From a virus: 50,725 bases of DNA. Location: the IMG/VR virus record IMGVR_UViG_3300022752_000105, positions 1-50,725 of that record. One strand, written 5' to 3'. This document shows, in pieces, positions 4,659 through 45,810 of this stretch. Below the pieces are notes generated by a model. That model had not been told where the DNA came from. It saw only the letters and a program-made list of their open reading frames with translations, and ran no database searches. The stretch's first letter is position 1. Each line of letters begins with the position of its first letter. The translations under genes and the position numbers were made by a program.

Positions 4659-4664
4659 TATTTA
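4659..4664 (-). promoter_or_regulatory. Late-promoter-like core AATAAATA, 5 nt from ATG
   Basis: TAAATA on the minus strand, in the context TTGAATAAATAATACT before the ATG at 4653. Five bases separate the core from the start codon, so the message would be nearly leaderless if the site works as in T4. Confidence 0.55.
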
Positions 4665-4679
4665 TTCAATTTTTAATTT

Positions 4680-4763
4680 TCATGAAGCTCGTATAAGAGA
4701 ATATTTACATCTCCAATTTATTGATTCGATTTTTAAATCAATCACTTCATTAAACATTAACAT
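4680..4763 (-). CDS. Candidate 27-residue small protein
   Basis: A short frame starts at ATG 4763 and ends at a TGA at 4680-4682. The peptide begins MLMFNEVIDLKIESINW and continues RCKYSLIRAS. A good ribosome-binding site (AAAGGA, six bases from the ATG) lies just after the stop of the small-terminase gene, so it would be read from the same message. Without it, the 123 bases between 4654 and 4776 would be the longest unexplained gap here. There is no recognised family. The Trp-Arg-Cys-Lys-Tyr stretch could be tested for conservation. It could also be chance in AT-rich DNA. Confidence 0.4.
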   Translation of the reverse strand: MLMFNEVIDLKIESINWRCKYSLIRAS

Positions 4764-4776
4764 TTTAAATCCTTTA

Positions 4777-5253
4777 TTATTTCATATTCTTAAGTTTTTC
4801 TAGTAGGCTATTCCTATCTGTAATCACATATCCCTGAGCTTCTATGGTTTGTTCTGCATCACTATGTTTTTTATCAATTGCTAGTTTTTTCAGCTGTAGC
4901 TCAACCATTTTAAGTTTTTTATCTATTTTTGCGCTCTTAGCCTGTATGGCAGCGTTCATCATATTAGCTGCAACTTCGAACATACGAGCACCATATCGAA
5001 CTTCTACATTCATTCCTAAGTCCATAAGGTCATCGTAGGCCTGTTCTGCCTTGGCTGCTAGTGCATCTAATTCTCCATCGGCCATGTCACCTAGACCTTT
5101 TACCCTTGGAAGAGCAGCACTAATCTTATCGAATTCTTCAAGTTTTTCTTGTAGATCTATGGGTTGAGGTAACTGAGTGGGTGCATCTTTAGGGCCAATG
5201 TGGTCTTCTTCATTATTAGGAAGATTTAATAATTGTTCTAATTTTTTTGTCAT
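4777..5253 (-). CDS. 16: Terminase small subunit (gp16-like)
   Basis: 158 residues, close to T4 gp16 (164). The small terminase recognises DNA and regulates the gp17 motor. The protein has a disordered, Pro-rich N-terminus and then a mostly helical core: AYDDLMDLGMNVEVR, ARMFEVAANMMNAAIQAK, and KIDKKLKMVELQLKKL. The segment FEVAANM followed by a coiled-coil-like helix matches the central domain seen in T4-like gp16. It sits between the gp4-type nuclease and the gene before gp17. The start is weakly marked: only AT-rich sequence precedes it, with a broken GTAAATTT core. The family call rests on helical pattern, length and position, not on a catalytic signature. Confidence 0.68.
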   Translation of the reverse strand: MTKKLEQLLNLPNNEEDHIGPKDAPTQLPQPIDLQEKLEEFDKISAALPRVKGLGDMADGELDALAAKAEQAYDDLMDLGMNVEVRYGARMFEVAANMMNAAIQAKSAKIDKKLKMVELQLKKLAIDKKHSDAEQTIEAQGYVITDRNSLLEKLKNMK

Positions 5254-5274
5254 AAGTTGTTTTAAAAAATTTAC

Positions 5275-5718
5275 TTATCTTCTTTTAGATCCTTGTTGGA
5301 ATATATCATTTTCATTTATTACTCTAAATTTTAACCCATGGTTTCTCGCCCATTGACCGGCCGCTTCCCACTTGGCCATATTTTTAACGTATTGAGCTTG
5401 ATCATATGGGTTTTTTCCTACTCTTTCACGTATACTTTGTTTTGCTGGTTTAATTTCTATAAGTTCTCCATGCTTTTTCATATTTTTATCAACGTAAGTT
5501 ATTAAAAAATCTGGAACATAGACAGTTTGTTTGCCTGTAAGAGGATCTCTATATGGAATTTTAACACATTCGCTAGACCATTCTTGTATTGCTGGATTGT
5601 TATCACAAAACATCATAAAGGTTAATTCCCAACTACTACGATAAACTGGAAGTTTATTACCTACATATTTTTCTAAATTTTTTACTTGATAAATGTCTTT
5701 AGCAAATTTTAAAGTCAT
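5275..5718 (-). CDS. 4: Head-completion nuclease-like protein (gp4-like)
   Basis: 147 residues, matching T4 gp4 (150), which acts after packaging to finish the head so that the tail can join. Residues RSSWELTFMMFCDN (27-40) are the family's recognisable core. A PD-(D/E)xK nuclease pattern is visible: Glu31, Pro69-Asp70 (VPDFLITY) and Glu88-x-Lys90 (ELIEIKP). The catalytic set looks complete, so nuclease activity is plausible. The start codon overlaps the upstream gene's stop by four bases (ATGA), so translation is probably coupled. It is followed closely by the small terminase. Confidence 0.85.
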   Translation of the reverse strand: MTLKFAKDIYQVKNLEKYVGNKLPVYRSSWELTFMMFCDNNPAIQEWSSECVKIPYRDPLTGKQTVYVPDFLITYVDKNMKKHGELIEIKPAKQSIRERVGKNPYDQAQYVKNMAKWEAAGQWARNHGLKFRVINENDIFQQGSKRR

Positions 5719-15600: not shown

Positions 15601-18600
15601 CCGCTACCTCCTGCGGCTACTGTGATTGTAGGTGATCCTCCTTGGCCAATTCCTGTTGCGCCTCCAGAGCCGCCACCATAAGCACCTCCTGCCCCCGAAA
15701 CATTGGCTCCGCTGAAAATACTTGTACCACCTCCTCCATTACCTCCCTGAGAACCACCACCCCCTCCAGGAGCATTTGCACCGAAGTCTACGTTAACACC
15801 GGCCAACCCACTAGCGCCTTGCCCTAATAGGCCTACACCTCCACCTCCACCTCCACCTCCACATGCATTCCCATTACCGTTTATAGTTCCAAAATTTGTA
15901 GCTCCCCCTGCTCCCCCTCCACCATTACCATTTGTTGGATTTGTTGAAGTGTCAAAAGTATTAGCACCACTCCCTCCAGTGCCGCCATTACCAGCATAAC
16001 CACCGGCACCACCACCACCACCGCCTTTTGTTTCAACTGTGCCAAACCATTTACCACCATTCCCCCCAAGTCCACCACCATCACCTACATAGGTACCACC
16101 GATTCCTTCTATGTTTGTACTACCAAGTCCACCATAACCTGCCACTGTGCTAATGTTAATAAAATAGCTGTTGCCTCCATTATTACCATTTACACCGGCA
16201 GATCCGCTTGAAAATCCAGCTCCACCGGCGCCTACTACCACAGTGTAGCTTTGACCTGGAGTTACATTGATATTGTTTTTCCAACCTAGGCCACCTCCAC
16301 CTCCACCTCCACCACTGGCATTTCCGGTAAATCCCGGAATTGAACCCGTTCCGCCACCTCCAACACAAACAACACATACTGAATTTACACCAGCCGGACA
16401 AAGCCAAGAATAAGTTCCAGGAGTAGTATATTGCTGTTCACCTTGAGGTCCTGCTGCCGATAAAATGTCTACCCTAAATGTTTCTGCTCCCTCTGTTAAC
16501 TCATCTGCGATTGGAGTAAGAGAAAAAACGGTAGTAGAAGCTAGAGTTGGACCGGAAGCACTAATATCAAATTGACCCCTGTCTCCCCCTCCAGGTAAAG
16601 GTGTAAAATCGTTTTGAGAACTTGATGTATGAACAGCCTGATAATATAATCTTGTACCATTGGCCACATGGTAAGTTGTCACGGTAAAGTTAACTGATCC
16701 TCCTTCTGATACGGAGCTACTAGAAGGAACAACAGCATAAGTTGGAGTAAAGCTAGTATCACTTACTGTTATATTGTTTGATGTTGCAACAATTGGACCA
16801 CTAGTACTCCCTGTTCTCAACTGTATGGCAAAAGTTTCTGTACCTTCACCACCACTTAAATCATTAGTTAAAGTCACACTAAAACTGCCAGTACCATTGG
16901 GTGGAGTAGCCACTGCTATCAGTACCGATCCACTTAAACTAGAACTTGCGAAGTCACTTGTGGTTAGACCAGTCCCTGTTACAGTCCAATATAAAGTTGT
17001 ACCTCCAGGAACTTGGCCTGTTGTTATACTAAAAGTAACGCTTGCCCCTTCATTAACTGATGAAGGGCTTCCTGTTATACCGTAAGTCCTGGTAAGACTG
17101 GTATCATTAATGGTTATAGTTATAGATGTTGCCACAACAGGTCCAGCCGTTGATCCTGTTCTCAATTGAACCTGAAAAGTTTGATCACCTTCTGTTGTTA
17201 AATCGTCTGTTGCACTTACACTGAAGCTACCAGTTCCGCTAAGAATTGGGCCTGCTGCGCTTATGGCAAAATTTCCATTAGTTGAAACAAAATCTGCTGC
17301 CGCTGTTGTACCGTCTGAAATTGTCCAATATAAAAAAGTTCCATTAGGTACGTGGGTAGTGGCTACATTAATTGTTAAATTTGTTCCTTCATTAAAATTA
17401 TTAGCGACAGGATTTATACTGTAGCCTGGTGTAAAACTTGTGTCATTTATTGTTATAGCAGGGCCTGTTGCTACAATAGGTCCAGATGTGTTGAATGTTC
17501 TTAGATTATAGACAAATGTTTCTGCACCTTCTCCTGTACTGAGGTCATTAGCCAGTGTCAAAGTTGTAGATCCTCTACCAGCCGCATATGTTCCACCTAG
17601 GACAACGGATCCAAAAAGAGTTGCTGGACTAAAATCACTGGGAGTTATATTAGATCCGCTAATGGTATAATATAAAGTTACTGGAGGAAAGTTTGTTGTA
17701 GTAACAATGATACCTACACTTGAACCTTCATTTACGTTTGTAGTTGAAGTTGTAACATAAAAACTAGGTGTTAGACTGGTGTCGTTTATGGTAATTGTAG
17801 GACTTGTTGCTTGAACAGGCCCAGAAGTGCTGTTAGATTTAATAACAGTATTAAAAGTTTGATTACCTTCTGTGGTCATATCAGCTGCAATGGCAATATT
17901 ATATGAACCAATATTTGACGAGACATTAAAGCTACCAAATAAAGGTGGATTAAAGTCAGCATCATTGGTAGTGACGTGACTAATAGTCCAATAATAGGTG
18001 CCATTGGGTATGTTACTTCCACTTATATTGATTGTGGTAGTTTGTCCTTCATCAACTGTTATTGGTCCAGGAGTGACTACCCACACAGGCGAATTACTGG
18101 TATCGTTAATTGATAAAGTGGGTGTTGATGTAGTAATTGCACCAGTGGTACTAGCTGTTCTTACTGCAAACTGAAAAGTTTCAGTGGTTTCACCTGTGCT
18201 GGCATCATTCAAAATTGTCATAGAAACACTGCCAGCATTTGCATTTATGAATACTGATCCAAAATGTACTCCGCCAGTGAAGTCATTGCCATTTACCGTT
18301 CCTAATGCTGTCCAATAAAGAGTTGTACCATTAGGTACGTCTGTGGTTGTTATATTAAAAATTATCGTTTCGCCTTCATCATAAGCAGCCTTAACTGGAT
18401 TTCTAGTAACATTGTATGTGGGGTCGATACTTGTATCTAGTATTATTATGGATGTGCTTGTTGTAACAACAGGCCCTGACGCACTACCTGTTCTAATTTC
18501 TACGTAAAAATTTTGATTACCTTCTGTTGTTGAATCTGCAAGTGTATTAACAGTAAATGTTCCTGTGTTTCCATTGATAAAAAAGTCACCGCTTATGGCT

Positions 18601-21191
18601 GAAAAATCAGCATTTTGAGTAGTTTGGTTGTTGATTGTCCAAAATAAATTGGTACTGTCAAACAAATTTTCTGTAATAACCCTGAAACTGCAAGTATCTC
18701 CTTCCCAAACAACTGGTAATCCTGAAAGAATACTTCTAGGTACCACTTCTACAAAATAGGCAGGATTTTGGCTGGCATCCATAATTTCTATTACTTGTGA
18801 AGTTGCCACCACAGGACCTGTTGTACTTATTGTACTTACCTGCATTGCCAAAGTTTCATATTGAGTGGGCACATAGGCAGCTATAGTTACCAAAGATGGT
18901 GAAAATGGTACAAAAGTTGCATCTTTGAAATTTCCAAGATACAATTGACTTGTCACGGGATTACTGACAATAGTATAACCATTAGGAGCATCGAAAGTAT
19001 TGAAAGACTGAACAGACGTTATATTTCCTGTAGAATAATCTATTTGATACTGGTAAATTCTTCTAGTATTCAAAGTTCGAAAATAGATAAATGGCAGCTT
19101 ATTATCAATAGTTGCTTTAGAGGTCTCACCAGATCCTATTACATTATCAACTCCAAATTTAATCAACCACCCAGTTTTAGTTATTCTATATTTTTCAATA
19201 AATCCATCTGTAGTTGAACGATAAAGGTATCTGCCAAATTTATCAATCACAATATTTTGTGTAGTATTGCCAGTAGTTAAATGGTTATAATAACTTGTGG
19301 TACCATTTTGGTTTATATAATATATAGTAAGATAATAAGCATTTGCTATAGAACCAGAGATATAAAGCACACCACGAGCAGATCCCAAGTTTAATAGATC
19401 TGGTCTTGGATGTATTTTCATGTCACTATAAATAGTAAACACATTAAATGTAGGCAAATTGACACCTACTTGACTTGTACCTATTTGTGTTAATGCACCT
19501 GTACTAGTAGTAACCGCCGATGATGAAATAAAGCTTTGATTATTAGCAAGGTGCAACGCAATCAATAAACTGCCGTCATTGGTATAACAAGGAAAGTCAA
19601 CAGAATTAAGCGAATTATTCGTGAGGCCTGTAAATTCTTGATCTGCCACTCTAGTTATCACATTAGTTAAGGTATTTCTTTGCAATATTTGAAATCTGTA
19701 ACTATTAATGGCAGCAGCATTGGTTCCAACATGAATGCACTGATGAGAAGGATGTGGCCTAATGGAAATTGCATTGCTTGTAAAATCAGACCTTATTCTT
19801 GTAATAGCACCTGTTGCAGTGTTTATTGAATACTGTTCCCATCCTTGATCCCATGCTCCATAAACGTATTGTCCATCGTCGCTGACGGTAATTTCTCGTA
19901 GTATACCACTGGCTATAGTGAGACTATTAACAAAATTTAAACTGCCCGGAGCTTCCGTTGTTTGGTCAAGTTTGGCATTTACGGTAAATGCTGCTGCTGC
20001 ACTAAGAACAGTCACGTTTCCAAAATTAGTATTTTGAATAAGATCTTGGGCGCCAGCGGTTCCTGTGTTTACCCAATATAAAATTGTGCCGTTATCTACA
20101 TTTGCCGTGCTGATATTAAAGGTTACATTTTGACCTTCATTTATTCTAAAAGGACTGCCTATGTTTGGAACAATTGCGTAGGTAGGGTCTAAACTTGTAT
20201 CATTGATAAAAATGTTAGGAGTGGTTGCAACAATTGCTCCATTTAGACTTGATCTTATGTTTACAAAAAAACTTTCTGTACCTTCTGTTAATTTATCAGC
20301 AATCACATTTATTGAAAATTGCGCCTGAGGATTTTGTCCCACGTCTATTACAAATGTACCTGTTGTTGGAGTAACATCAGTTACAATGTTTGTATCCCAA
20401 AAATATGTAGTTCCCTGTGGAACTCCGTCAGAAGTTGGTATTTGTATTGTAACTGCGGCTCCTTCATTAACGGGATTAGGAGAGGCTGTTACAGTTAATC
20501 CAGGTGCTCTACTGGTGTCAAAAATTCTCACCTCAGAAAATGCCACTACCGGTCCTGAGTTACTGCCTGTCCTTAATTCAAATAAAATTGTTTCAGTTCC
20601 CTCAGTTGTAGCATCATTTATAACCGTAAATGTTACACTTGCAGCATTACCTGATATTGTAACCTGTCCAAACTCGGGATTGGCAGGAGCACTAAAATCA
20701 GTTCCAAATGTTGTACCGCCCTTGGTCCAATAAAGAATTGTGCCATTTAAAACACTGGTAGTTGCAATATTAAATGTAACAGATGCGCCTTCGTTTATTG
20801 GTGAAGAACTAAAAGTTACCTGATATGTAGGGCTTAAACTTGTATCTTGTATTCTTACAAGACATTCAGCAACAATTTCACCTGCAATATTTCCTCTCCT
20901 TATGTAGATAGGAATATCTTCTGAGCCTTCAGTGGTTCTATCAATGTTAGCTGTTAGTACAAACGATCCTATGCCATTTGTTAGGCTAATGAGGCCGTTG
21001 TCAGTTAAAAAATCATCAGTAGGAATACTGTAAAAAAGAGAAGTTTCTGGTGCTAATTCAGTATAAACATTAATAGTAACTGACTGACCTTCGTTTATAC
21101 TGGCACTACTTGGAGTTGCAGTATAAAGCGCAGTCATTCCTATTTGGATTATTCCACCATCTATTTGACCATCGGTAAAACTAATTGGCAT
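12633..21191 (-). CDS. Giant Calx-beta / glycine-rich surface adhesin, 2852 residues
   Basis: No signal peptide. The backbone is about 14 Calx-beta-type modules of roughly 100 residues. Each shows an N-terminal (I/V)NEG motif, a middle LYW-TI...DF strand and an end ...TEG-ETF...LRT-SGP-VATS...I-NDTS. Such modules are extended beta-sandwiches used in adhesion. Three kinds of insertion interrupt them: a beta-propeller-like block (about 415-775) with repeated D-x-x-G-x-x-(V/L)-Y strands; two internal glycine-rich domains (about 1587-1877 and 2199-2467); and a third at the C-terminus (2579-2852). Two of the glycine-rich domains open with PGTY-W--PAGVN and close with AVRIIWG. Polyglycine domains act as receptor-binding tips in some T4-like adhesins. 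It is therefore a candidate long fibre or receptor-binding protein. The start at 21191 has a GGGTGA site and lies three bases after the gp13-like gene. Confidence 0.85.
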   Translation of the reverse strand: MPISFTDGQIDGGIIQIGMTALYTATPSSASINEGQSVTINVYTELAPETSLFYSIPTDDFLTDNGLISLTNGIGSFVLTANIDRTTEGSEDIPIYIRRGNIAGEIVAECLVRIQDTSLSPTYQVTFSSSPINEGASVTFNIATTSVLNGTILYWTKGGTTFGTDFSAPANPEFGQVTISGNAASVTFTVINDATTEGTETILFELRTGSNSGPVVAFSEVRIFDTSRAPGLTVTASPNPVNEGAAVTIQIPTSDGVPQGTTYFWDTNIVTDVTPTTGTFVIDVGQNPQAQFSINVIADKLTEGTESFFVNIRSSLNGAIVATTPNIFINDTSLDPTYAIVPNIGSPFRINEGQNVTFNISTANVDNGTILYWVNTGTAGAQDLIQNTNFGNVTVLSAAAAFTVNAKLDQTTEAPGSLNFVNSLTIASGILREITVSDDGQYVYGAWDQGWEQYSINTATGAITRIRSDFTSNAISIRPHPSHQCIHVGTNAAAINSYRFQILQRNTLTNVITRVADQEFTGLTNNSLNSVDFPCYTNDGSLLIALHLANNQSFISSSAVTTSTGALTQIGTSQVGVNLPTFNVFTIYSDMKIHPRPDLLNLGSARGVLYISGSIANAYYLTIYYINQNGTTSYYNHLTTGNTTQNIVIDKFGRYLYRSTTDGFIEKYRITKTGWLIKFGVDNVIGSGETSKATIDNKLPFIYFRTLNTRRIYQYQIDYSTGNITSVQSFNTFDAPNGYTIVSNPVTSQLYLGNFKDATFVPFSPSLVTIAAYVPTQYETLAMQVSTISTTGPVVATSQVIEIMDASQNPAYFVEVVPRSILSGLPVVWEGDTCSFRVITENLFDSTNLFWTINNQTTQNADFSAISGDFFINGNTGTFTVNTLADSTTEGNQNFYVEIRTGSASGPVVTTSTSIIILDTSIDPTYNVTRNPVKAAYDEGETIIFNITTTDVPNGTTLYWTALGTVNGNDFTGGVHFGSVFINANAGSVSMTILNDASTGETTETFQFAVRTASTTGAITTSTPTLSINDTSNSPVWVVTPGPITVDEGQTTTINISGSNIPNGTYYWTISHVTTNDADFNPPLFGSFNVSSNIGSYNIAIAADMTTEGNQTFNTVIKSNSTSGPVQATSPTITINDTSLTPSFYVTTSTTNVNEGSSVGIIVTTTNFPPVTLYYTISGSNITPSDFSPATLFGSVVLGGTYAAGRGSTTLTLANDLSTGEGAETFVYNLRTFNTSGPIVATGPAITINDTSFTPGYSINPVANNFNEGTNLTINVATTHVPNGTFLYWTISDGTTAAADFVSTNGNFAISAAGPILSGTGSFSVSATDDLTTEGDQTFQVQLRTGSTAGPVVATSITITINDTSLTRTYGITGSPSSVNEGASVTFSITTGQVPGGTTLYWTVTGTGLTTSDFASSSLSGSVLIAVATPPNGTGSFSVTLTNDLSGGEGTETFAIQLRTGSTSGPIVATSNNITVSDTSFTPTYAVVPSSSSVSEGGSVNFTVTTYHVANGTRLYYQAVHTSSSQNDFTPLPGGGDRGQFDISASGPTLASTTVFSLTPIADELTEGAETFRVDILSAAGPQGEQQYTTPGTYSWLCPAGVNSVCVVCVGGGGTGSIPGFTGNASGGGGGGGGLGWKNNINVTPGQSYTVVVGAGGAGFSSGSAGVNGNNGGNSYFINISTVAGYGGLGSTNIEGIGGTYVGDGGGLGGNGGKWFGTVETKGGGGGGAGGYAGNGGTGGSGANTFDTSTNPTNGNGGGGAGGATNFGTINGNGNACGGGGGGGGVGLLGQGASGLAGVNVDFGANAPGGGGGSQGGNGGGGTSIFSGANVSGAGGAYGGGSGGATGIGQGGSPTITVAAGGSGAVRIIWGSQRLYPSSLVPTGATVVASSSLVTINDTSFTPSWSSGRSSAAINEGDSTTFNITTGNVTPGTYYYTISGTGLTGTDFTSPSGQLNGSFTVSGTYSSGSAAIVITLSNDLSVNEGTETFVLQLRTRNQAGPIVHTTQSVTVTDSSFTPTFTMTYSTSINEGASLSINYQSYHYASQTLYAVINNVTSSGADFSASSVSFNITSTTVNGVPTASGSFNITPLADELTEGAETFTVSVKTGSATGPTIATTNNITINDTSKTVIYSLASSSYNYNEGSLITVTITAVNGTPGTTVYWEVSGTNVTGSDFNSGSVTGTAQILTQLPGSGPLTGDILLVAGGGAGGTSWSYPGVGGGGGGGGVVHRTSQTFPTGLYPITVGLGGQPATVSSPPTNPGYNATPGGNTVFLGLTALGGGAGSTWEQGGFPGGSGGGGVYYNGPGQGQATQPGSPSGGVGFPGGARGPGLGGVTIAGGGGGAGQAGYGYPLPPTSPVALQGRGGDGITLDISGVPVTYAGGGGGGSAGTAGGSPGGSGGGGGSGHSGYPPGHPLAGTDRPGVAKPGTDGLGGGGGGTYYGPSFGNPGYFSTFRGAAGGSGIIVWKVANNNSKTIIFSGGITYSSNTGVAGFTIYTISATASFQDVSIADATTFTGSFQLALSSDNSFNEGGESFVIYLRTGSSSGPIVATSPTFTINDTSAIPVGQSIWDTPGTYTWTIPAGVNQFSVVTVGAGGGGSGVFPQPPGFLGAQGGGGGATAWQNNILCTPGQTVTVRVGTRGSGGSRGFSGSSGTASNIQYGVVTYCDAAGGSGSTFTAAGISANYGGGGVGGIRGVRTTPTATSLVRGGGGGGGGYNGRGGTGYFQDGDFASYTGPPGFGGTPGEGGGGGGGFSGGGGGGVGLFGQGGSGAGGRSGSPAPTFNRNGAGGSGGEEGVGSSISGRGGNYGGGGNGTDINSSNGFGGRGANGAVRIIWGGTQRYFPNTNTGNF
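14885..16508. repeat. 34-base exact direct repeat inside the adhesin gene
   Basis: The same 34 bases occur at 14885-14918 and 16475-16508 (both begin TAAATGTTTCTGCTCCC). The offset is 1590 bases, a multiple of three, so both copies encode the same part of a Calx-beta module (ADELTEGAETF). This is the clearest of several DNA-level similarities between modules and points to recent duplication or gene conversion. Confidence 0.75.
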
Positions 21192-21980: not shown

Positions 21981-23168
21981 ATGCCTAGACTTTCTCTTTA
22001 CCGCCCAGAAAAAAGCAACGATTTTAGATTCTTAGACCGTGCCATAAATGAACAATTTCAAATAGGTGGAACTGATATCTATGTTCACAAATATGTAGGC
22101 CCTAATTCTCCTCAGCAAGGTGAAAGTTCTCCTGTTCAACCTAATCAAAGCAATTCTATTCCTGAATTAGGCATACAAGACCTTCTTTTACTGGAAAATA
22201 GAGATAGAAAATATGACCAAGATGTTTATATTATTAGAGGAATTTACACTCTTCAAGATGTTGATTTTAATCTAAGCCAATTTGGGTTGTTTCTACAGAA
22301 TGACAATATTATGATAACTTTCCATTTAAGGAGCAGTTTTGAAGCTCTAGGTAGAAAGCTTATTGCAGGTGATGTATTAGAGCTTCCCCATCAAAAAGAT
22401 GAATATGCATTAGACGATGGTCTAACTGCTTTGAAACGATTTTATGTCATAAGTGAAGTTACTAGACCTGCAAGTGGATATAGTCAAACATGGTATCCTC
22501 ATTTAATAAGAGCCAAATGCCAACCTTTAGTTGACACACAAGAATTTAAAGAGATATTAGATAAAGATAGTGGAGCAGATGATGGAATAACTCTAAGAAA
22601 TTTATTGAGCGATTATCAAAGAAGTATAGAAATCAATAACCAAGTGATATTACAAGCAGAAGAGGATGTGCCTAAAAGCGGCTATGAAACAAGACATTTT
22701 TATATTATTCCAGAAGATGATAAAGGTCTAGCAGATGTTCAAGACACCACCGACCTTGAAATAGATGCCAGTAGCACAATGATAAATGCTGCCGCTGTCT
22801 TAAAAACTCCTAATAAAAATTATTATGTGGGTTGGTTAACCGGCGACGGAGTTCCTCCTAACGGATCACCTTATAACTTCGGTATCGTGTTTCCTTCAAA
22901 TGCCATTGCAGGAGAATTTTTCTTAAGAACTGATTATTTGCCTAATAGAATGTATAGATACGATGGAAGGAATTGGGTTAGATTTGAAGATGATGTAAGA
23001 ATGACAATAAGTACTCAGGGAGACACTCAAGCTACTGATCCAGCACTTGTTCGTAGAAAACTCAAAGCAAGTTTTGTAAACAACTTAAATACTTCAACTA
23101 TAGCAGGACAAATTGTACCTGAACGTCAATCACTGAGCAAGGCGCTCAAACCTAGGGCAGATTTATAA
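21981..23168 (+). CDS. 14: Neck protein (gp14-like) with C-terminal extension
   Basis: 395 residues versus 256 in T4 gp14, which helps close the head and join the tail. The first half fits the family: FQIGGTDIYVHKYVGPN, then LLLLENRDRKYDQDVYI, then NLSQFGLFLQNDNIMITFHL and LIAGDVLELPH, in the same order as in T4 gp14. WYPHLIRAKCQPLVD completes the core. The last 150 or so residues are extra and include NRMYRYDGRNWVRFED, a Trp/Tyr motif shared with other tail proteins here. It is on the plus strand, opposite most of the window. It is followed by gp15 after one base. Confidence 0.8.
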   Translation: MPRLSLYRPEKSNDFRFLDRAINEQFQIGGTDIYVHKYVGPNSPQQGESSPVQPNQSNSIPELGIQDLLLLENRDRKYDQDVYIIRGIYTLQDVDFNLSQFGLFLQNDNIMITFHLRSSFEALGRKLIAGDVLELPHQKDEYALDDGLTALKRFYVISEVTRPASGYSQTWYPHLIRAKCQPLVDTQEFKEILDKDSGADDGITLRNLLSDYQRSIEINNQVILQAEEDVPKSGYETRHFYIIPEDDKGLADVQDTTDLEIDASSTMINAAAVLKTPNKNYYVGWLTGDGVPPNGSPYNFGIVFPSNAIAGEFFLRTDYLPNRMYRYDGRNWVRFEDDVRMTISTQGDTQATDPALVRRKLKASFVNNLNTSTIAGQIVPERQSLSKALKPRADL

Positions 23169-23169
23169 A

Positions 23170-24567
23170 ATGGATTATTTTTATGACGGTCAATTGAGGA
23201 GATATGTTGCTCAATTTATAAACATAATGAGCAATTTTGCCTACAAAGATAATAAAGGTAATCTCGTCCAAGTTCCTGTTAGATACGGAGATCTAACAAA
23301 ACAAGTAGCTCAAGTTTTGAGAAAAAATAGCGAAAACGCCATACCCAGTGCTCCATTCATTGCCTGCTATATAAAAGATTTACAATTTGATCGACCTAGA
23401 CTACAGGATCCTACTTTTGTCAGTAAGATTAATATTAGAGAAAGAGACGTTGATCAAAACAATGATTATTTGAATACACAAGGATCAAATTATACAATAG
23501 AAAGAATAATGCCAAGTCCCTACTTACTAACATTGACAGCAGATATATGGACATCGAATACAGATCAAAAATGGCAAATTTGGGAACAAATAGTGGTATT
23601 TTTTAATCCTAGTTTAGAAATTCAAACGACTGACAATTATATAGATTGGACTAGTCTCAGTGTACTGCATTTAGAAAATCAAACTTATACCAGTAGAACT
23701 ATTCCACAAGGAGTAGCAGAGGATATTGATATTTTAACAATGAATTTTACGGCACCTATTTGGATTACACCTCCTGCAAAGGTAAGGAAATTAGGGGTAA
23801 TTACTAAAATAATTAGTAATGTTTTTTCTTCTAATGCAGAAGGTATTATTCAAACTCAATATCGAATAGACGGAGCAAGTGATATTTTTAATAACATTAC
23901 GTCAGGTGAAGAAATTGTCATAACACAAGGTGATTTTGACTTATTGATATTGAATAATCAAGCGAGACTGGTTCCTCCAAGTGTCCCAGATAGATCAATT
24001 GACATTACAGATCCAAGAAATTCTGTAAGTTGGCAAAAACTTTTGAGTTTTTATCCAGGTAAATTTGTAGCAGGAGTAAGTCAATTAAGATTTTCAAATC
24101 AGGAAGGAAGTGAAATAATAGCCTATGTAAGCTTAGATCCACTTGATGATAAAAATATGGTATTAAATATTAATCAAGATACTATTCCTACTAATACTAT
24201 TATAGCAGGAAGAGGCACAATTGATGCTATAATAAATCCTAGCACTTATAAACCCACAGGGCTAGTAGCAGGTTTAAGATTTTTAATTCTAGAAGGAATA
24301 AATGATAATGATCAATTTGGAACACTGGGTTACCAGGGTCCGATTGCATGGAAAAATGCAGATAATTCAGACTTTCATGCTAATGCTAACGATATTATAG
24401 AATATAACGGTTCAAATTGGCTAGTAGTATTTGATAGTAAAGGCTTCAATGGAACAATTTATACAACAAACAGCTATACAGGCACACAATATCAATATTC
24501 TAACGGAGATTGGAGCAAAACTTACGAAGGTATATATAATAACAAGTTATGGCGTCTAATCCTTTAA
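23170..24567 (+). CDS. 15: Tail completion / sheath stabiliser (gp15-like) with long C-terminal extension
   Basis: 465 residues versus 272 in T4 gp15, the terminator ring at the top of the tail. The start YFYDGQLRRYVAQFINIMSN closely parallels the T4 protein (YFYNSSFRRYATL...). Further shared points are VPVRYGDLTKQ, the NIRERDVDQ region, PSPYLLTLTADIWT, IWEQIVVFFNPSLEIQ, and APIWITPPAKVRK. From about residue 215 the sequence has no T4 counterpart. It contains EYNGSNWLVVFD and YQYSNGDWSKTYEG, the same Trp/Tyr motif seen in gp14 and in the sheath insertion. It lies one base after gp14 and overlaps the Nudix gene by 19 bases. Confidence 0.85.
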   Translation: MDYFYDGQLRRYVAQFINIMSNFAYKDNKGNLVQVPVRYGDLTKQVAQVLRKNSENAIPSAPFIACYIKDLQFDRPRLQDPTFVSKINIRERDVDQNNDYLNTQGSNYTIERIMPSPYLLTLTADIWTSNTDQKWQIWEQIVVFFNPSLEIQTTDNYIDWTSLSVLHLENQTYTSRTIPQGVAEDIDILTMNFTAPIWITPPAKVRKLGVITKIISNVFSSNAEGIIQTQYRIDGASDIFNNITSGEEIVITQGDFDLLILNNQARLVPPSVPDRSIDITDPRNSVSWQKLLSFYPGKFVAGVSQLRFSNQEGSEIIAYVSLDPLDDKNMVLNINQDTIPTNTIIAGRGTIDAIINPSTYKPTGLVAGLRFLILEGINDNDQFGTLGYQGPIAWKNADNSDFHANANDIIEYNGSNWLVVFDSKGFNGTIYTTNSYTGTQYQYSNGDWSKTYEGIYNNKLWRLIL

Positions 24568-38763: not shown

Positions 38764-41700
38764 TTAGCCTCCACCTGACTCAATAGCTAGAATAAACGGT
38801 GTTAGGTTAGCAAATAAAGATCTTGTAAATGTTCTACCACTTAACACACCTGTTGCTTGACTAATCACAAGCCCCGGACCAATTCTAAAATCACCATTTT
38901 GATCTGTTGTAGTAAAGAATACCTTACCACTATTTAATTGAACAACTTCTTGTTCTTGTTTAGGATCAGCAACTCCTCTTTGGGGCAAGGCACCATAATC
39001 TATGCCTGCACCGACATATTCAAACACATAGCCGGATGCACTCATATAGCTTCTTTGATAAAAATTAACTGTTGCTCCATCAGGAAACAAATCTGTTCTG
39101 GTAACATTTTCACCTAATTGAACAATATGATATGTTCCTGCTCTTCTCCAATAACTGAGTCCTGCCATTACCATGTTGTAATTGCTACCTGCTTGAATAT
39201 CATAAATTAATCTTTGCAAAATTATTTTTGTATCTCTTTGACATTTAACCTTAATTAATTTTTTATATTCATCGCTATAAGAAGCTAAAGTTGATCCTCC
39301 AGGTCCCCAATTGTAGTATTCAGTGTAGGCAGATACCTCATCTGCTAAAAATTCAATATTAGATTCTATTAAAGAAACTGCTGATCCTGCACCTTGAACA
39401 GCAGGACCTGTGGTTTTTCTTAACGAAGGTCTTACTACATTTTCAGCAGCAGTTAGATTAGCTGCTCCTATAATACCTAGCATATCAACAAATCTAAGAT
39501 CAATAAATGATTGAGATAAACTACCGTCGCTAACCAATAAATTAATAAATTGAGTAGTTGTATTAGTTCCTGTCTGCATACTTGAAATAACGGTATTACT
39601 TATAACCTTATTTGTCAATGTATTAAGGTGTGTTAGTGCATCTATATGCGGTTGAACTTGACTAACAGCAAGTCCAAGATGATCAGTACTTAAAATATTA
39701 ACACCGTCAGGTATTAGTGCATTCTGTTTGTTATATTGAGGATTTGCTCCTATTTCGCTGCTCAATACTGTATAGTAGCTATTGCCACAAAAAAATAAAT
39801 CAAAATAATTTTCGTTGACACTCTGAGATGTGTTATCAGGATCAGAGCCTCCTGCTGTTAAAGGTTTACTCAATGTCACTGTTTTGTATTCTACATTTGT
39901 TACGACCGTATCAGTATCTACATAAGGTATGAAATTACCACTATTATCTATATTTGTACTTGTAGATCTTGCGAATTGATCTCTAGCATAAACCTTATTT
40001 CCAATATAAATCCCAGTAGTATCAATTGGTCCTATTGTAATACTACCTGTAGACAATGAACTTGTTGTAGGGCTTGCATTTAGGAATCCAGGAAATCCTT
40101 GTTCATTTAGTTGAGGCACTAATTCACCTGTAAAGTCTCTAACTGTTTCAGGTGCTTCAATTTCCATAACTAAGGAAATATGAGGTCTATCATCTAGATC
40201 AGGTAAGAAAATCATTACTCTAGCATTATTTGGCCAATAACCACTAGGATAATATTGATCTAAATAATCTGATCCAGGTATATCAGGACTTTCTGGATAA
40301 GCTTTAAACGCTGGATTAAACACATGACCTGTAAATTTACGTTTTCCATATCCCTTGGCCTGCAAACAAATTGTCCCAAAGTTTGCATTACTGTTAACAA
40401 TGGATGCAATACCGCCTGTATCAACTTCGACACCGATTGAACAAAAAATAGTAAACACGGAAACTAACTGTGCATATCCGTCTCTTATAATATGTATGCC
40501 TCTACCACCTTGATTAACTTGGGTGAATGCATCATATACAAATGATTGTATCGGTGATCTTTCACTAATCACAGCACCGTCTACTAAACTACCTCCCATA
40601 CTACCGATTGGGTCTATTTTTCTCTGCGCCCATGTAGAAGTATTACCAGTTAGTTCATAGCTTAATACATCTACTTGTTTGTCTCTATAGGGGAAAATTA
40701 AAGTTTCACCAAAATACAGTGTGGCATTAGTACCAAAGCCAATTGTCGGTATATCTAAACCTACCCTAAACGTATTTGCTGCAATACTCTGAGCAGAAAC
40801 AACTTTAGGAGCAATCTTAACGTCTGCACCATTTATTCCCACAAGGCTAAACAATCCGCCACCGGCGTACTTAGGTGGGGCATACAATGGACCTTTTTCT
40901 ATTATATCTGTAATAATTTTAAAGTTTCTCTTAATTGCTTCTTGAGGGCCATACTCATAACCGTAGTCAAAAAATGGATTAATTATTTGACTTATTATTG
41001 TGCCAGTGGTTGCGGTAACCACAATATTTGCTGCAACATTGAGTGCCACATCTCTTGCCCTGTTTATTGCCATTGTTGTGGTGTTTTCTTGGCCTCTTAC
41101 AGAGTTATATCCTGCACTCCAATAACTCAGTCCTGCTTCTAAACTCTTACTATTTCCGCCTAGAATAATATCTTGAGTTACAGCGTCTAAAATTAAGCCA
41201 ACATCTCTATAACATTTTGCTTCATTATAATTAAATTTACCAGGATTAAAATTTTGATCTATATAAGCTATGGTTTCTTCAATTAAAAAGTCTTTGTTTG
41301 CACGTATTAGATCATAAGCTGTTACCATAGTTGCTGTTGTACTGGCTGTCATTGCAATAGCTGCTGGAGGAGCAGCAACACCTGGACCATTTAATATAAT
41401 ATTTGTAATAGTGTTTACGTTAGATGTGATAATATTAGCTTCAGCTGTTGTAGCTGTTGTTGTAAAAAATATTTGATCTATTTCAGTTTGTCTAACACTA
41501 ACAATTTGATTTTGTATAACTTGGCCAATTATTGAACCTAAATAATTGAATGCTGCTACAGTTTGAGTGGTCTCATTATAGATATTTGTAGAGATACTAC
41601 TAAAACCATAGTAGTACAGTCCATTTTGAATGCTTTGTCTATTTCCACCATGTAGTAAATCAAACCCAACTGCATTTACCATGTAAGCTACATCTCTTGC

Positions 41701-44700
41701 ACATTTGGCTGTATTATAAGTAAAGCCCCAATTAGTGGCCTGAACAAAAGCATTGACTTCTGCACCCAGATATGCGGCATTTAGACGTAAATTAAGAAAA
41801 GCATTAACAACACTTTGTATAGTGCTAGGTTTACCGTTAGGCACAATTCTATTTGTCCATCCAGTTTTGTTACCACTTATTATTTCTATAATGTTATCAA
41901 AATTTTGTTGTATAGCAGCAACTTCTACACTTGTTGCTGCTTGATATGTTGATGTATTTTGCGATACAGCAGTTTGATATCTAGCAATTAAATCATCAAC
42001 TGGTGTAATATTTAAAATTATCTTTGCACTTAGTTCTTTCAAATATTTGATAGCCTCTATAGTAGGATTTAGTTGATTCTTGATATCACCTACATAGAAA
42101 TCTTGTCCCCAGTACTGTAAACCTGCAAAGGTTGATTGGCTTCTGCTAGGGGTGTAATAAAGTAAATCTTGAGCAAGTGCATCAATAATTAAGCCGGTAT
42201 CTCTCCTGCATTTAATTTCACTGTACGGAAAATAACCAGGATTTGTAGCAGGTATTAAAACATGATTAATATAATTAATAGTTTCTAATTGTATGAATGA
42301 TCTATTTGCTTGGATTAATGTTTCTGCACTGATAAATGCACTATCTGGACCAGGGCTTGTATAAAGCGTTGGTGCAGCTTCAGGACCATTATCTATAATG
42401 GTAGTGATAATATTCTTTAGATCCTCTATGCTTTGAGCACTTATACCACCACCTACTAATGCAGTATTAATAACTTGTTTGTAAGTGGCTGTGGTAACAG
42501 AAGGACTAACAGCTAATAAATCTGTACAGGTAACATTAACAATAACCTTTTGTGCAAGCTCGTTTAGATAATCAATGGCAGCAATTGTTTGAACTTCTTG
42601 CCCAGCAATTTTGCTGATAACACCATCGTAATAAGACAATCCAGCCTCTACAGATTTTTGATTTCCACCAAATGCTGCATCGTAGGCAATGTTTTCTATT
42701 AAAATACCTACATCTCTTCTACATTTTTCTCTATTGTAACTAAAGAAATTACTTGTAGAATTTATATATGCAATAGTTTCTGCCACCATGAATGGTTTGT
42801 TAGCAAGCAGTAACTTGAAAGCATTTTGAACAGCAGTTGACGTATTTTCGGTTAAGTTGATCGGAATTCGTTTTCCAACACTCTGATAATCATCTGGCCC
42901 ATTTCTAATGATATCGGTTATTAAATCAATTTTATTTGAAATTGATTCAGCTTCATAAATTGTAGCACTATTCAATCCCGCAATAACTTGATTAACTGAA
43001 TTTTGGTACTTGGTTATTACAGGTTTGCCCTGCACAACTAGTCCCATTAGATTTTTCAAAAATCTATAAGCAGCGGTAGTCTGAGGTATTTCATTTGTTA
43101 TAAATGATGAACCTGTATTCAACTCACTTACCGTGGTTCCGTATCCGAAATAGTATACACCAGATTTAATACTCTGTCTATTACCGCCATGTAATAGGTC
43201 AAATCCTACACTGTCAATAATATATCCTACATCTCTTCTACAGGTAGCTGTGTTGAAAACAAATGCAGGTGCTGTGCTTTGAATAAAACTAATAACATTG
43301 TTAGTTAAAGTAGTTTTATTTGTAATTAGGGCATTATAACCATTAAGAACAGCTAGTGAATTAGATGCTGTATAGTTTGGAACAATTAAATTTGTTACCC
43401 ATTCACTAAATTCACCGTTGGATAAAGAATTAGTATTGGTATTGAGTATGGCCAATATTTCATCAAATCTTGCAGAAACATAATTAGCCTGTGTTGCGTT
43501 AGAAGCATTTACAACAACGGCTGCAACTTGACTTTTTAAATAATTAATAGCAGCAGTTGTAGTTGTTATTTGACCACCTATGGCATCAACATATCCTGTT
43601 TGTCTCCAATATTGAAGACCTGAAAATATACTTTCACTGGTACTATTTTGTAGTAAATCTATTGCTACACCATCAATTATAAGTCCAGTGTCCCTTGCAC
43701 ATTTTGCCTGATCATAAACAAAGTTACCAGAGTTAAAAGTTTTGTCAACATAAGTAACAACCTGTTCTTGAATAAATGGTTTGTTTGCTAAAAGTAGTGT
43801 TCTTGCATTAAAGAATCCAGGATTTTGTTGTCCTGCATTTACACTCATCCCTAAAGCAATAGTTCCTGAACTTACCTTTACAACTATGCTAGTTGTATTA
43901 AATCCCCAAGTACCAGTTCCGACAGCACTTGGAACTTGAACAGTTTGATTTGGAATAAACATTGTACCATCACGCAACCAAGGACCGCTCTGATTAGTAC
44001 AATTCTGAATATAAGGACTATGGAATAGATCTATTCTTTCGTTACCTTCTAAAGGAGGAAATGCAGTGGCATAGGCTCCTCTATTAAATCCAGTTTCATA
44101 AGGACCTTCTAGTAAACCGCTACGTCCGTTTAAAAAAGTCATGTAGTTTAAATAACATCCACTGTCTACGTGAAACAAATCTTGTGTTTTGTTTATAGGT
44201 TCAATGAAAGTAGTTCTAATATCACTACCTCTAACTGAAGTGTAAGGTTTTAACCTAATTGGATTGTCTTCTAAATAAAATCCTGCACTGACTAAAATTT
44301 GTGTACCTTCTTTGTAAAAAGGACTTTTTACAGCCCCGCCAACTGTTCTACAGGCACGACTGGCATCTAATGCTCTTCCGTCATTGGTATCATTACCATC
44401 CATGGTAACATACAATGTATTTGACACAACAGGATAAGTACCTATTGGGTTTACACCACGTACACGAATGTCACCTAGTATTTCAGTTAATTGCGTCGGT
44501 GGTGCTATAGTTACATCAGTGTTTGTATTGGTAATAAATTTAGTATAAAGATTATTAACATAGGCATCTGCCCATTCTAAAGTTTCTTTACCTAGTGTAC
44601 CTGTATTTGCTTTCCTAGGAAATGCTCCACCGCCTATTACTATGTCTTGCCCTACACCTACACCTCCGGTAATAGTTAAGGCAGCAGTCATAGTGCTTAA

Positions 44701-45810
44701 GGCTGTCTGACTAGATGCCACACGCATTTTATCAGCAGTTAACAAATTGTTAAATGGGTTATAAGTTAAACCGCCGTAAATTCCATTAGGATCAATGAAT
44801 AAAAATTGATTACCTGTGTTAAGAGCAAATGTAGGAAAAAAATCTATATTAACATTCGTGGCTGTGACATTAATGCTAAGACTTGTGGATGCTATTTCTA
44901 TTCTACCATAAATGTATCCGCCTACATTTAGGTCTTTTTGAATGCCCACTCCTCCCTTGAAATAAGTTCCGCTTGCTTCTCGTTGAGCATTCGCTGCTGC
45001 TATTTGAGCAGCATTGCCAGGGGTGGCACCATAAACATCATTAGGATCATATGCCCTAAAATAAGGATTCTCTACATTATCAGTACTAAGTCCTCTTACA
45101 TCTTCAATGAATAAATTTCTCCATGACCCAGCTTCCTCACCAATGTCAAATGTTGCTGCTACATCTGGAATTAAGTCATTGATAAATTTTGCTTTTGGAT
45201 CAATTTTTTGAGAACTTGAAATACCAATATTGATAGTTCCTGCATCAAATTCAATCTCAGTAGGAGTTATTAATTTTATATAATTACCGGCTGATTCTAA
45301 TTTTATATAATCACCTGCTTCTACATTATAATAGTCATTAGCTCTATTATCTATGTAGGATGCTGATTCATTAAGAATATATGAACCAGCTAAATTTTCA
45401 ATATATCCGTCCGCTTCATTTTTAATATATCCGCCTAATGCTAAATTCTCAATATTTGTAGCAGCTTCATTTTTTATAAAATCACCGGCAAGATTTTCAA
45501 TATAGGTTTGAGCGTTATTTTTTATATAACTGTTAAGAGACCTGTTTAAAATATATGTACTGGCTTGATTTTCTATATAGTCTGTATTAGCAATATTTTT
45601 TATAAATTGTCCAGCTTCGTTATTAATGTAGCTGGTGGCTAGATTCTGTATAAATGAACCAGCAGCTTCATTACGAATGTAAGAGCCCGCCTTGTTGTAC
45701 ATAAACTGGCCTGCGATTTGAGTAATATCAGCACCGGCTTCTACATAAATAAAGCCATTTTGTGCTAAAACTCTATAGTTACCTGGTAATTTTAATACAT
45801 TAGTTGACAT
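38764..45810 (-). CDS. Giant virion surface protein, 2348 residues, beta-helix interrupted by helical repeats
   Basis: Domains in order: residues about 30-185, some 17 short repeats of the type YIxNxAxxx; about 190-440, fibre-motif and globular parts (FKGGVGIQKDLNVGG, ITGGVGVGQDIVIGGG); about 470-640, a pectin-lyase-like beta-helix start (TLYVTMDGNDTNDGRALD, LKPYTSVRGSDIRTTFIEP). About 700-1700 holds six helical repeats of 157-173 residues, each with KC-RD-G-I-D and GG(N)--S--AGL-YW. At about 1730-1850 what looks like the rest of the beta-helix follows (GRGIHIIRDGYAQLVSVF, IASIVNSNANFGTICLQA), then more beta sequence and a seventh helical repeat near 2193. The start has TAAGGA and a TAAATA core 17 bases upstream. 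No enzyme residues recognised; a pectin-lyase-like fold could be a depolymerase or only structural. Confidence 0.82.
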   Translation of the reverse strand: MSTNVLKLPGNYRVLAQNGFIYVEAGADITQIAGQFMYNKAGSYIRNEAAGSFIQNLATSYINNEAGQFIKNIANTDYIENQASTYILNRSLNSYIKNNAQTYIENLAGDFIKNEAATNIENLALGGYIKNEADGYIENLAGSYILNESASYIDNRANDYYNVEAGDYIKLESAGNYIKLITPTEIEFDAGTINIGISSSQKIDPKAKFINDLIPDVAATFDIGEEAGSWRNLFIEDVRGLSTDNVENPYFRAYDPNDVYGATPGNAAQIAAANAQREASGTYFKGGVGIQKDLNVGGYIYGRIEIASTSLSINVTATNVNIDFFPTFALNTGNQFLFIDPNGIYGGLTYNPFNNLLTADKMRVASSQTALSTMTAALTITGGVGVGQDIVIGGGAFPRKANTGTLGKETLEWADAYVNNLYTKFITNTNTDVTIAPPTQLTEILGDIRVRGVNPIGTYPVVSNTLYVTMDGNDTNDGRALDASRACRTVGGAVKSPFYKEGTQILVSAGFYLEDNPIRLKPYTSVRGSDIRTTFIEPINKTQDLFHVDSGCYLNYMTFLNGRSGLLEGPYETGFNRGAYATAFPPLEGNERIDLFHSPYIQNCTNQSGPWLRDGTMFIPNQTVQVPSAVGTGTWGFNTTSIVVKVSSGTIALGMSVNAGQQNPGFFNARTLLLANKPFIQEQVVTYVDKTFNSGNFVYDQAKCARDTGLIIDGVAIDLLQNSTSESIFSGLQYWRQTGYVDAIGGQITTTTAAINYLKSQVAAVVVNASNATQANYVSARFDEILAILNTNTNSLSNGEFSEWVTNLIVPNYTASNSLAVLNGYNALITNKTTLTNNVISFIQSTAPAFVFNTATCRRDVGYIIDSVGFDLLHGGNRQSIKSGVYYFGYGTTVSELNTGSSFITNEIPQTTAAYRFLKNLMGLVVQGKPVITKYQNSVNQVIAGLNSATIYEAESISNKIDLITDIIRNGPDDYQSVGKRIPINLTENTSTAVQNAFKLLLANKPFMVAETIAYINSTSNFFSYNREKCRRDVGILIENIAYDAAFGGNQKSVEAGLSYYDGVISKIAGQEVQTIAAIDYLNELAQKVIVNVTCTDLLAVSPSVTTATYKQVINTALVGGGISAQSIEDLKNIITTIIDNGPEAAPTLYTSPGPDSAFISAETLIQANRSFIQLETINYINHVLIPATNPGYFPYSEIKCRRDTGLIIDALAQDLLYYTPSRSQSTFAGLQYWGQDFYVGDIKNQLNPTIEAIKYLKELSAKIILNITPVDDLIARYQTAVSQNTSTYQAATSVEVAAIQQNFDNIIEIISGNKTGWTNRIVPNGKPSTIQSVVNAFLNLRLNAAYLGAEVNAFVQATNWGFTYNTAKCARDVAYMVNAVGFDLLHGGNRQSIQNGLYYYGFSSISTNIYNETTQTVAAFNYLGSIIGQVIQNQIVSVRQTEIDQIFFTTTATTAEANIITSNVNTITNIILNGPGVAAPPAAIAMTASTTATMVTAYDLIRANKDFLIEETIAYIDQNFNPGKFNYNEAKCYRDVGLILDAVTQDIILGGNSKSLEAGLSYWSAGYNSVRGQENTTTMAINRARDVALNVAANIVVTATTGTIISQIINPFFDYGYEYGPQEAIKRNFKIITDIIEKGPLYAPPKYAGGGLFSLVGINGADVKIAPKVVSAQSIAANTFRVGLDIPTIGFGTNATLYFGETLIFPYRDKQVDVLSYELTGNTSTWAQRKIDPIGSMGGSLVDGAVISERSPIQSFVYDAFTQVNQGGRGIHIIRDGYAQLVSVFTIFCSIGVEVDTGGIASIVNSNANFGTICLQAKGYGKRKFTGHVFNPAFKAYPESPDIPGSDYLDQYYPSGYWPNNARVMIFLPDLDDRPHISLVMEIEAPETVRDFTGELVPQLNEQGFPGFLNASPTTSSLSTGSITIGPIDTTGIYIGNKVYARDQFARSTSTNIDNSGNFIPYVDTDTVVTNVEYKTVTLSKPLTAGGSDPDNTSQSVNENYFDLFFCGNSYYTVLSSEIGANPQYNKQNALIPDGVNILSTDHLGLAVSQVQPHIDALTHLNTLTNKVISNTVISSMQTGTNTTTQFINLLVSDGSLSQSFIDLRFVDMLGIIGAANLTAAENVVRPSLRKTTGPAVQGAGSAVSLIESNIEFLADEVSAYTEYYNWGPGGSTLASYSDEYKKLIKVKCQRDTKIILQRLIYDIQAGSNYNMVMAGLSYWRRAGTYHIVQLGENVTRTDLFPDGATVNFYQRSYMSASGYVFEYVGAGIDYGALPQRGVADPKQEQEVVQLNSGKVFFTTTDQNGDFRIGPGLVISQATGVLSGRTFTRSLFANLTPFILAIESGGG
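39180..43760. repeat. Seven Cys-Arg-Asp helical repeats (about 160-170 residues each)
   Basis: Signature KC(A/R/Y/Q)RD-G-I-D followed by D(L/I)L--GN--S--AGL-YW, centred near 43700, 43231, 42712, 42199, 41691, 41203 and 39232 on the minus strand. Spacing is 157 to 173 residues for the first six; the seventh is separated by a long beta-rich stretch. Linkers contain INYLK or FNYLG and 'I-T-I-I-NGP' motifs in most copies. Confidence 0.82.
45250..45720. repeat. Short nine-to-eleven-residue repeats at N-terminus of the giant protein
   Basis: About 17 units of the type SYIRNEAAG, SFIQNLAT, SYINNEAG, QFIKNIAN and so on, alternating Asn-Glu-Ala and Asn-Leu-Ala. The regular period and inward-facing Ile/Leu/Ala suggest a solenoid or a trimeric stalk next to the virion attachment end. 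Confidence 0.8.

Follow-up and report, generated by a model that had tools for sequence, protein, structure and literature searches.

Architecture of a repeat-bearing virion protein

The window, by which we mean the whole stretch of 50,725 nucleotides of viral DNA that was analysed, encodes a protein of 2348 residues on its minus strand (38764-45810), and all of the features described below lie on that strand. It is a tail fibre-like virion protein, with matches to the PHROG tail fibre families phrog_5342, 17885 and 4527. Its conserved C-terminal virion segment (residues 2248-2344; 38779-39069) recurs at the ends of PHROG tail fibres and of the protein of a relative, L385, with which it shares 50% identity. 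Seven units with a Cys-Arg-Asp motif are found in the protein, as was seen in a preliminary description, and six of them are in tandem. These are unit 1 (residues 640-799, Cys704; 43414-43893), unit 2 (800-959, Cys857; 42934-43413), unit 3 (960-1131, Cys1030; 42418-42933), unit 4 (1132-1302, Cys1201; 41905-42417), unit 5 (1303-1464, Cys1370; 41419-41904) and unit 6 (1465-1640, Cys1533; 40891-41418). Unit 7 (2120-2260, Cys2190; 39031-39453) is located away from the tandem block and is preceded by an extra, partial unit that was recognized by a profile match (2003-2098; 39517-39804). The codons of the motif cysteines are at about 39241-43701, within the range of 39180-43760 that was first given for the repeat. 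The tandem spacing had been put at 157-173 residues; we measure 153-173 for the six copies.

In IMG/VR relatives, a profile of the units recovers 840 copies, spread over 90 ORFs. Mean pairwise identity between units is 33%, and the most conserved columns are Y, D, D, R, N and C. A chance repeat is ruled out by the number of copies found and by the conserved motif columns. Copy number varies among the relatives, with tandem arrays of six, four and two units; overall, tandem copies range from 2 to about 20 and occur at differing places in different virion proteins.

An interrupted domain around the tandem block

The six tandem units interrupt one domain, as is confirmed by L385, which has that site empty. 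The N-terminal half of the domain (residues 505-606; 43993-44298) aligns by BLASTP with residues 708-798 of the L385 protein (E 2e-14), and the C-terminal half (1754-1828; 40327-40551) aligns with residues 816-890 (E 5e-15). Between them is an insertion of 1147 residues (607-1753; 40552-43992) that holds the units, where L385 has 17 residues. This agrees with the initial proposal that the units are inserted into another domain. That proposal also took the domain to be a pectin-lyase-type beta-helix, an assignment that is likely but weakly supported. Its likeness to the pectin-lyase-type beta-helix of tail fibres and spikes is a signature at the start of the domain, YV-x-x-x-G-x-(D/N)-x-N-D/L-G...T-I/V-x-x-A. 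The match of PF12708 to L385 is weak (20.4 bits, below the cut-off of 27), the PDB sequence search found no match for the domain, and this region has a pLDDT of 47 in the AF2 model of L015, a protein with two units. Unlike those fibres and spikes, the domain is interrupted by helical domains that take up as many as 1147 residues.

Homology to the phycobiliprotein superfamily

The whole protein matches the Phycobilisome family of Pfam, PF00502, with 37.3 bits and an E-value of 3.5e-9, the curated cut-off being 22.2. When the units are scanned singly, unit 6 is above the cut-off (24 bits), units 1 (14.9 bits) and 3 (16.9 bits) are below it, and the others are undetected. Among 101 diverse copies scanned in the same way, ten match PF00502 and every other Pfam family matches at most one copy; matches to DUF5462 and 2-ph_phosp were dropped, since they involved single copies and were below the cut-off. 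A profile of the six units of the window, searched against the whole PDB, gives 34 matches, all of which are phycobiliproteins (best E 1.9e-4), and in this search AKCRRDVG of the units aligns ungapped on AKCVRDVG of phycocyanin alpha. With a deeper unit profile, phycobiliproteins are 18 of 21 matches. In the reverse direction, a profile of cyanobacterial phycobiliproteins and BBAGs (bilin biosynthesis-associated globins) matches 170 of 641 phage copies at 1e-3. The search spaces were 24,736 models for Pfam, 177,635 PDB sequences and, for the fold search, 350,542 chains. The sequence signal is located mostly around the C-x-R-D helix.

Structure prediction of a single unit, a check that the preliminary description had proposed, gives a globin-like helical model for unit 6 (AF2 pLDDT 88.5). 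In a Foldseek search with this model, the top 50 PDB matches are all phycobiliproteins, and the bilin domain of ApcE (4xxi) superposes at 2.7 A over 146 columns. The idea of a helical repeat in a virion protein is borne out. The units are best explained as domains with a globin-like fold that belong to the phycobiliprotein superfamily, which comprises the phycobiliproteins and the BBAGs.

It could be argued that an unrelated helical repeat has acquired a coincidental C-x-R-D motif, since the identities in the Foldseek alignments are low (12-20%) and the profile-profile match is short (80% over 22 columns by hhalign against a narrow phycobiliprotein set). However, Pfam, the two-way PDB sequence search and the fold search independently rank phycobiliproteins first, and we regard such convergence as extremely improbable. 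The units are almost certainly homologous to the phycobiliprotein superfamily. The repeat had been called undescribed, which is wrong because the profile search matches an established family, the very finding that the preliminary description had named as counting against it; the reciprocal sequence and fold searches also give phycobiliproteins. An undescribed fold is ruled out by the PF00502, PDB profile and fold matches.

The C-x-R-D site

The Cys, Arg and Asp of the units align without gaps on Cys84, Arg86 and Asp87 of phycocyanin, which are the bilin attachment and contact residues. Among 486 non-redundant phage copies, Cys is present in 96%, Arg in 98% and Asp in 99%, and 383 of the copies lack any further Cys. 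Arg and Asp are intact in 465 of the 467 copies with the Cys and in 9 of the 19 copies without it (p=3e-14). The three residues are thus lost together across copies. That they might form a bonded or binding site, as first suggested, is plausible; the binding of a bilin itself is a prediction. Lower-scoring copies from isolates are less strict, S-SKS1 having retained the Cys and not the Arg. Two further positions, Asp at C+14 and Tyr at C+30, are invariants specific to the phage units.

These data bear on whether the fold, captured long ago from a phycobiliprotein or BBAG, was multiplied into a stiff helical spacer that makes the fibre or baseplate longer, with no chromophore and with Cys, Arg and Asp kept for packing or salt bridges. 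The varied number and placement of the copies in different virion proteins are as spacers would show, the phage-specific invariants suggest structural constraint, many domain-carrying genomes have no bilin genes and the relatives of the window have no psbA. However, with a mean identity of 33%, packing is a poor reason for keeping a lone helix Cys in 96% of copies, and the three ligand residues are lost together. Nor would a mere spacer be expected to retain exactly the bilin site. We consider a spacer without pigment possible but rather unlikely.

Phylogeny and distribution

In a phylogenetic tree, the units form a separate, phage-only clade with 100/100 support on a long branch (2.53 changes per column), and the BBAGs lie outside it. 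In 146 cyanobacterial genomes the domain was not found beyond two weak matches to a phycobiliprotein-like ORF, and a scan of bacterial genomes with the consensus unit, which is a weak test, found no prophage or host-genome copies. Hundreds of uncultured contigs carry the domain. Among isolated phages, the domain occurs in those of Synechococcus and Prochlorococcus; single-unit matches in INPHARED come from 220 records, 219 of which are named for Synechococcus, Prochlorococcus or cyanophage, and the cyanophage proteins involved are tail fibre, short tail fibre and baseplate wedge proteins.

These locations would also suit adhesin modules that recognize the host or its exudate through another ligand in a globin-type pocket, such as heme, biliverdin without a thioether, flavin or a host surface metabolite. 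BBAG-2 relatives without CXRD do bind biliverdin (PMC10151467). Against this, the units keep C-x-R-D exactly as covalent bilin binders have it, and not the heme histidine of globins, which makes another ligand improbable.

The gp7 of both P-HM2 and P-HM1 contains the domain, which was not found in P-SSP7. Several cyanomyoviruses adsorb in a light-dependent manner; in the dark P-HM2 fails to adsorb, whereas P-SSP7 adsorbs (PMC7112961).

Neither psbA nor CpeT was found in the relatives of the window, and the terminase of the window is nearest to those of PA5oct, Phosso, Atu_ph07 and GAP32-type jumbo phages, which infect heterotrophs. Therefore, the host may not make phycobilins. An explanation limited to cyanophages does not stand in view of these relatives and of the nearest terminases.

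Association with bilin genes

Three jumbo contigs with the domain bear adjacent heme oxygenase and bilin reductase genes. The domain is present in all five contigs of at least 140 kb that were found through their bilin reductase and in 3 of 19 random contigs, all three of one lineage. Bilin reductase was not seen in 43 of the 46 domain-carrying contigs, which are mostly fragments, and where present it is located elsewhere in the genome than the units. P-SSM2 and the Pelagibacter phage Mosig have the reductase with the domain undetectable, which rules out strict coupling. The reverse is seen in S-PM2 and S-SKS1, where the domain is present and the reductase is not. The coupling of the domain to bilin genes is loose.

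Discussion

We suggest that the units are probably bilin-binding virion domains. Since the pigment-holding residues are still in place, virus particles may carry light-absorbing pigments. The phycobiliprotein-type fold forms a branch confined to phages and recurs over the length of a tail-fibre or baseplate protein. A linear tetrapyrrole (phycoerythrobilin, phycocyanobilin or biliverdin) would most likely be supplied by the host or made by phage heme oxygenase and bilin reductase. During infection it would join the Cys of C-x-R-D by a thioether, with Arg and Asp holding the bilin propionate and pyrrole nitrogens, and virions released from the cell would bear pigments lined up along their adsorption apparatus. 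We infer all three elements, the binding of bilin, its route of delivery and its purpose. The pigment could be a structural cofactor, serve in photoprotection or sense light at adsorption. Light sensing would agree with reports that adsorption of some cyanomyoviruses depends on light, though a role there is speculation. That covalent bilin arrays on the tail or baseplate act as an integral photoreceptor or pigment and render adsorption light-dependent seems unlikely to us.

Phage heme oxygenase and PcyX, PcyA or PebS are enzymes, and their benefit or the fate of the bilins has been stated to be unclear (PMC11480375, PMC2984593). This holds for the benefit to Prochlorococcus phages, where Prochlorococcus has no ordinary phycobilisomes (PMC2984593), and the bilins that phages of heterotrophs make were left without a named sink in a 2024 study (PMC11480375). 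In the papers that we found on phage bilin genes, a virion protein is not named as the sink. A virion domain with an intact bilin site is one testable candidate for the benefit or sink and for light-dependent adsorption. If true, the light-receptor reading gives the phage genes for bilin synthesis and for lyases (heme oxygenase, PebS, PcyX, PcyA and CpeT) a sink for their product, and extends that sink to phages of hosts without phycobilisomes. The fold is known at the superfamily level; its occurrence in phage virions is without description in the open literature searched, where we found no paper on phycobilisome or phycobiliprotein domains in virions.

Comparison with known systems

The units share with the phycobiliproteins (phycocyanin, phycoerythrin, allophycocyanin and the bilin domain of ApcE) the globin-like helical fold that is predicted for them, the place of C-x-R-D, the Lys before the Cys, the Asn and Phe-x-Tyr upstream and the GG/GD turn downstream. 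However, phycobiliproteins form alpha/beta hexamers, whereas the phage units are tandem domains within a virion protein. The loop after the Cys helix is shorter in the phage units, C+9 is Asp in place of the inter-subunit Arg, and the invariant Asp and Tyr also set them apart. With their own well-supported clade and a domain nearly missing from cyanobacterial genomes, they are not light-harvesting phycobiliproteins proper.

BBAG-1/3, which have CXRD, bind bilins without lyases (PMC10151467). The CxRD of BBAG-1/3 is shared with the phage units, which show a similar divergence from PF00502 and a Cys-to-aromatic-pair spacing (C+30/31) that resembles that of BBAGs such as L500 more than that of phycobiliproteins. 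BBAGs sit beside bilin genes, and some phages likewise encode heme oxygenase and bilin reductase; phage-borne heme oxygenase with PcyX, PcyA or PebS shares some genomes with the domain. The units are not BBAGs, which are single-domain cell proteins beside heme oxygenase and pre-PcyA genes, whereas the phage units are in tandem in a structural protein. With them, the superfamily known from cyanobacterial and algal antennae and from bacterial BBAGs gains a third lineage, which is confined to phages.

Architecture of the tail fibre-like protein

The 2348-residue ORF translated from the 50,725-base IMG/VR record (38764-45810, minus strand) is a tail fibre by PHROG profiles, and genes for a T4-type terminase, sheath and gp15 lie in the surrounding region. 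Seven C-x-R-D units are present, with cysteines at residues 704, 857, 1030, 1201, 1370, 1533 and 2190. All but the last form a tandem array with a spacing of 153-173 residues, confirming the preliminary description apart from its spacing of 157-173. Copy number, also raised there, differs among IMG/VR relatives, which have 6, 4 or 2 tandem copies plus a separate C-terminal one. A profile search of IMG/VR relatives gave 840 unit matches across 90 ORFs, and other unit-bearing proteins have up to about 20 profile matches each. The N-terminal stem (45300-45740, minus strand; residues about 25-170) consists of a repeat of about 10 residues of the type Y-I-x-N-x-A/E (SYINNEAGQFIKNIA...), and is probably a solenoid or trimeric stalk. 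The neighbourhood encodes another very large virion surface protein of 2852 aa (12633-21191, minus strand; Gly-rich, Calx-beta and Ig-like Pfam matches). Two genes at 21981-24567 (plus strand), one for a gp15-like tail sheath stabiliser, run opposite to the otherwise minus-strand structural cluster.

Relationship to phycobiliproteins

The unit is very probably homologous to the superfamily of phycobiliproteins and bilin biosynthesis-associated globins (BBAGs). PF00502 (Phycobilisome) is the sole Pfam family above cut-off for the window protein (37.3 bits against a curated 22.2, E 3.5e-9), so the repeat, for which the preliminary description could name no known domain, is not undescribed at the superfamily level. 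Unit 6 exceeds the cut-off by itself (24 bits), and a Pfam scan of 101 diverse copies found PF00502 in 10 and any other family in at most one. Against the PDB, phmmer with the whole protein returned three sequences, each a phycobiliprotein beta chain. All 34 matches of the window six-unit profile are phycobiliproteins (best E 1.9e-4), as are 18 of 21 matches of a deeper unit profile, including the top three. In reverse, cyanobacterial phycobiliproteins and BBAGs were built into a profile, which at 1e-3 matches 170 of the 641 phage copies. Structure prediction, an early suggestion, gave an all-helical AlphaFold2 model of unit 6 (101 aligned copies, pLDDT 88.5), whose best 50 Foldseek matches in the PDB are all phycobiliproteins (probability 1.0). 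Its confident matches in a viral structure library were Synechococcus phages, uncultured Caudovirales and entries without a name.

In the profile alignment against the PDB, phage AKCRRDVG lies ungapped on AKCVRDVG of phycocyanin alpha. There, as is established for phycobiliproteins, the Cys bears the bilin thioether, and the propionate and pyrrole nitrogens are contacted by Arg86 and Asp87. In a set of 486 unit copies, made non-redundant at 80% and averaging 33% pairwise identity, C, R and D are kept in 96%, 98% and 99%, respectively; Asp C+14 (99%), Tyr C+30 (100%) and Asn C-28 (96%), numbered from the motif Cys, are also conserved. Loss tends to affect the whole site at once: R and D are both present in 465 of the 467 copies that have the Cys, against 9 of the 19 that lack it (p 3e-14). 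Isolated cyanophages have the same signature (KCRRDIGHFLNAIIMDL in S-PM2, KCARDTRLVIAAWTNDL in P-HM2), and some weaker isolate copies, e.g. in S-SKS1, are without it. The structural part of the first reading holds, and its idea that these residues may form a bonded or binding site is probably correct.

Insertion into another domain

The proposal that the units are inserted into another domain is borne out by a 1072-aa protein from a different virus family, which turned up fortuitously in a randomly drawn control set. Window residues 505-606 align with its residues 708-798 (36.5%, E 2e-14) and residues 1754-1828 with 816-890 (45%, E 5e-15). Because these two segments are 17 residues apart in the homologue, where the site is empty, and 1147 in the window protein, the six tandem units interrupt one domain. 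The homologue has four units of its own near its start (residues 97-613), ahead of its 708-798 and thus at a different site; the window protein is without units before residue 505. The interrupted domain is likely a beta-helix. Its start resembles the pectin-lyase fold with a weak Pfam match, a sequence search against the PDB gave no match, and the AlphaFold prediction for this region of a relative with two units had low confidence (pLDDT 47). The homologue's virus family also encodes another protein, 1831 aa or longer (1-5493 of stretch L385), that is nearly all short repeats of the YTGNF/YTGDF/FLATFQGQY type.

Occurrence and associated bilin genes

A single unit searched against 50,697 phage records (E 0.1) matched 220: the names of 219 refer to Synechococcus, Prochlorococcus or cyanophage, and the remaining record is called 'Marine'. 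The marine single-cell virus AG-345-P14 carries the domain, and relatives are encoded in at least 559 IMG/VR stretches. The matched isolate proteins are tail fibre, short tail fibre, baseplate wedge or structural proteins; virion proteomics of such cyanophages has been published (PMC3037559). The window's own relatives differ from isolated cyanophages: psbA or CpeT occurs in 0 of 46 contigs, and the window terminase has its nearest counterparts in jumbo phages of heterotrophs. No phage-type copy was found in 146 cyanobacterial genomes. A 63-sequence tree groups the phage copies in a single clade (100/100 support), which a long branch separates from phycobiliproteins and BBAGs. The unit is a new branch of this superfamily: phage-only, tandem and embedded in a virion protein.

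Three domain-bearing jumbo contigs (L101, G040 and G045; 229-328 kb), all without psbA, encode a heme oxygenase followed immediately by a ferredoxin-dependent bilin reductase. The reductase is PcyX/PcyA-like in this gene pair, which in L101 occupies 852-2061 and has a ClpS-like ORF ahead of it. In a reverse survey from 80 reductase loci, the domain was present in 5 of 5 reductase contigs of at least 140 kb, two of which (G038, G045) had also been reached via the domain, in 2 of 7 at 50-100 kb and in 0 of 14 shorter ones; random control contigs had it in 3 of 19, all three one lineage. The association, in counts that ignore lineage kinship, is suggestive and not strict. P-HM1, P-HM2, P-SSM4 and AG-345-P14 have both domain and reductase, S-PM2 and S-SKS1 the domain without the reductase, P-SSM2 and Pelagibacter phage Mosig the reductase without the domain, and three podoviruses neither. 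In Prochlorococcus phage P-SSM2 (215716-218734; 1815-4833 of stretch L516) heme oxygenase lies two genes ahead of a fibre-like protein homologous to the 1072-aa protein, with no unit found by profile. Mosig is alone among the non-cyanophages of INPHARED in having this bilin reductase; its heme oxygenase and reductase genes lie beside the neck genes (3418-4654 of stretch L188). Since no unit was found in its genome, Mosig must have another bilin sink, if bilin is used.

Proposed bilin binding

What the analysis shows directly is the homology and the predicted fold, a bilin site that is retained, the virion setting and the amplification; that the units bind bilin is inferred, with moderate confidence. 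Bilins of host or phage origin could be taken up by the phage domain during infection, without a lyase.

Purpose is the weakest step of this proposal, and a role in light sensing seems improbable. Several cyanomyoviruses adsorb light-dependently (PMC2984593), and light dependence of adsorption separates P-HM2 from P-SSP7 (PMC7112961). The domain is present in P-HM2 and absent from P-SSP7; with so few phages compared, this agreement with light-dependent adsorption is a lead and does not count as evidence.

In E. coli, BBAG-1 and BBAG-3 acquire bilins without the help of a lyase (PMC10151467). The phage domain could do so likewise, since these globins have the CXRD motif in common with the phage units.
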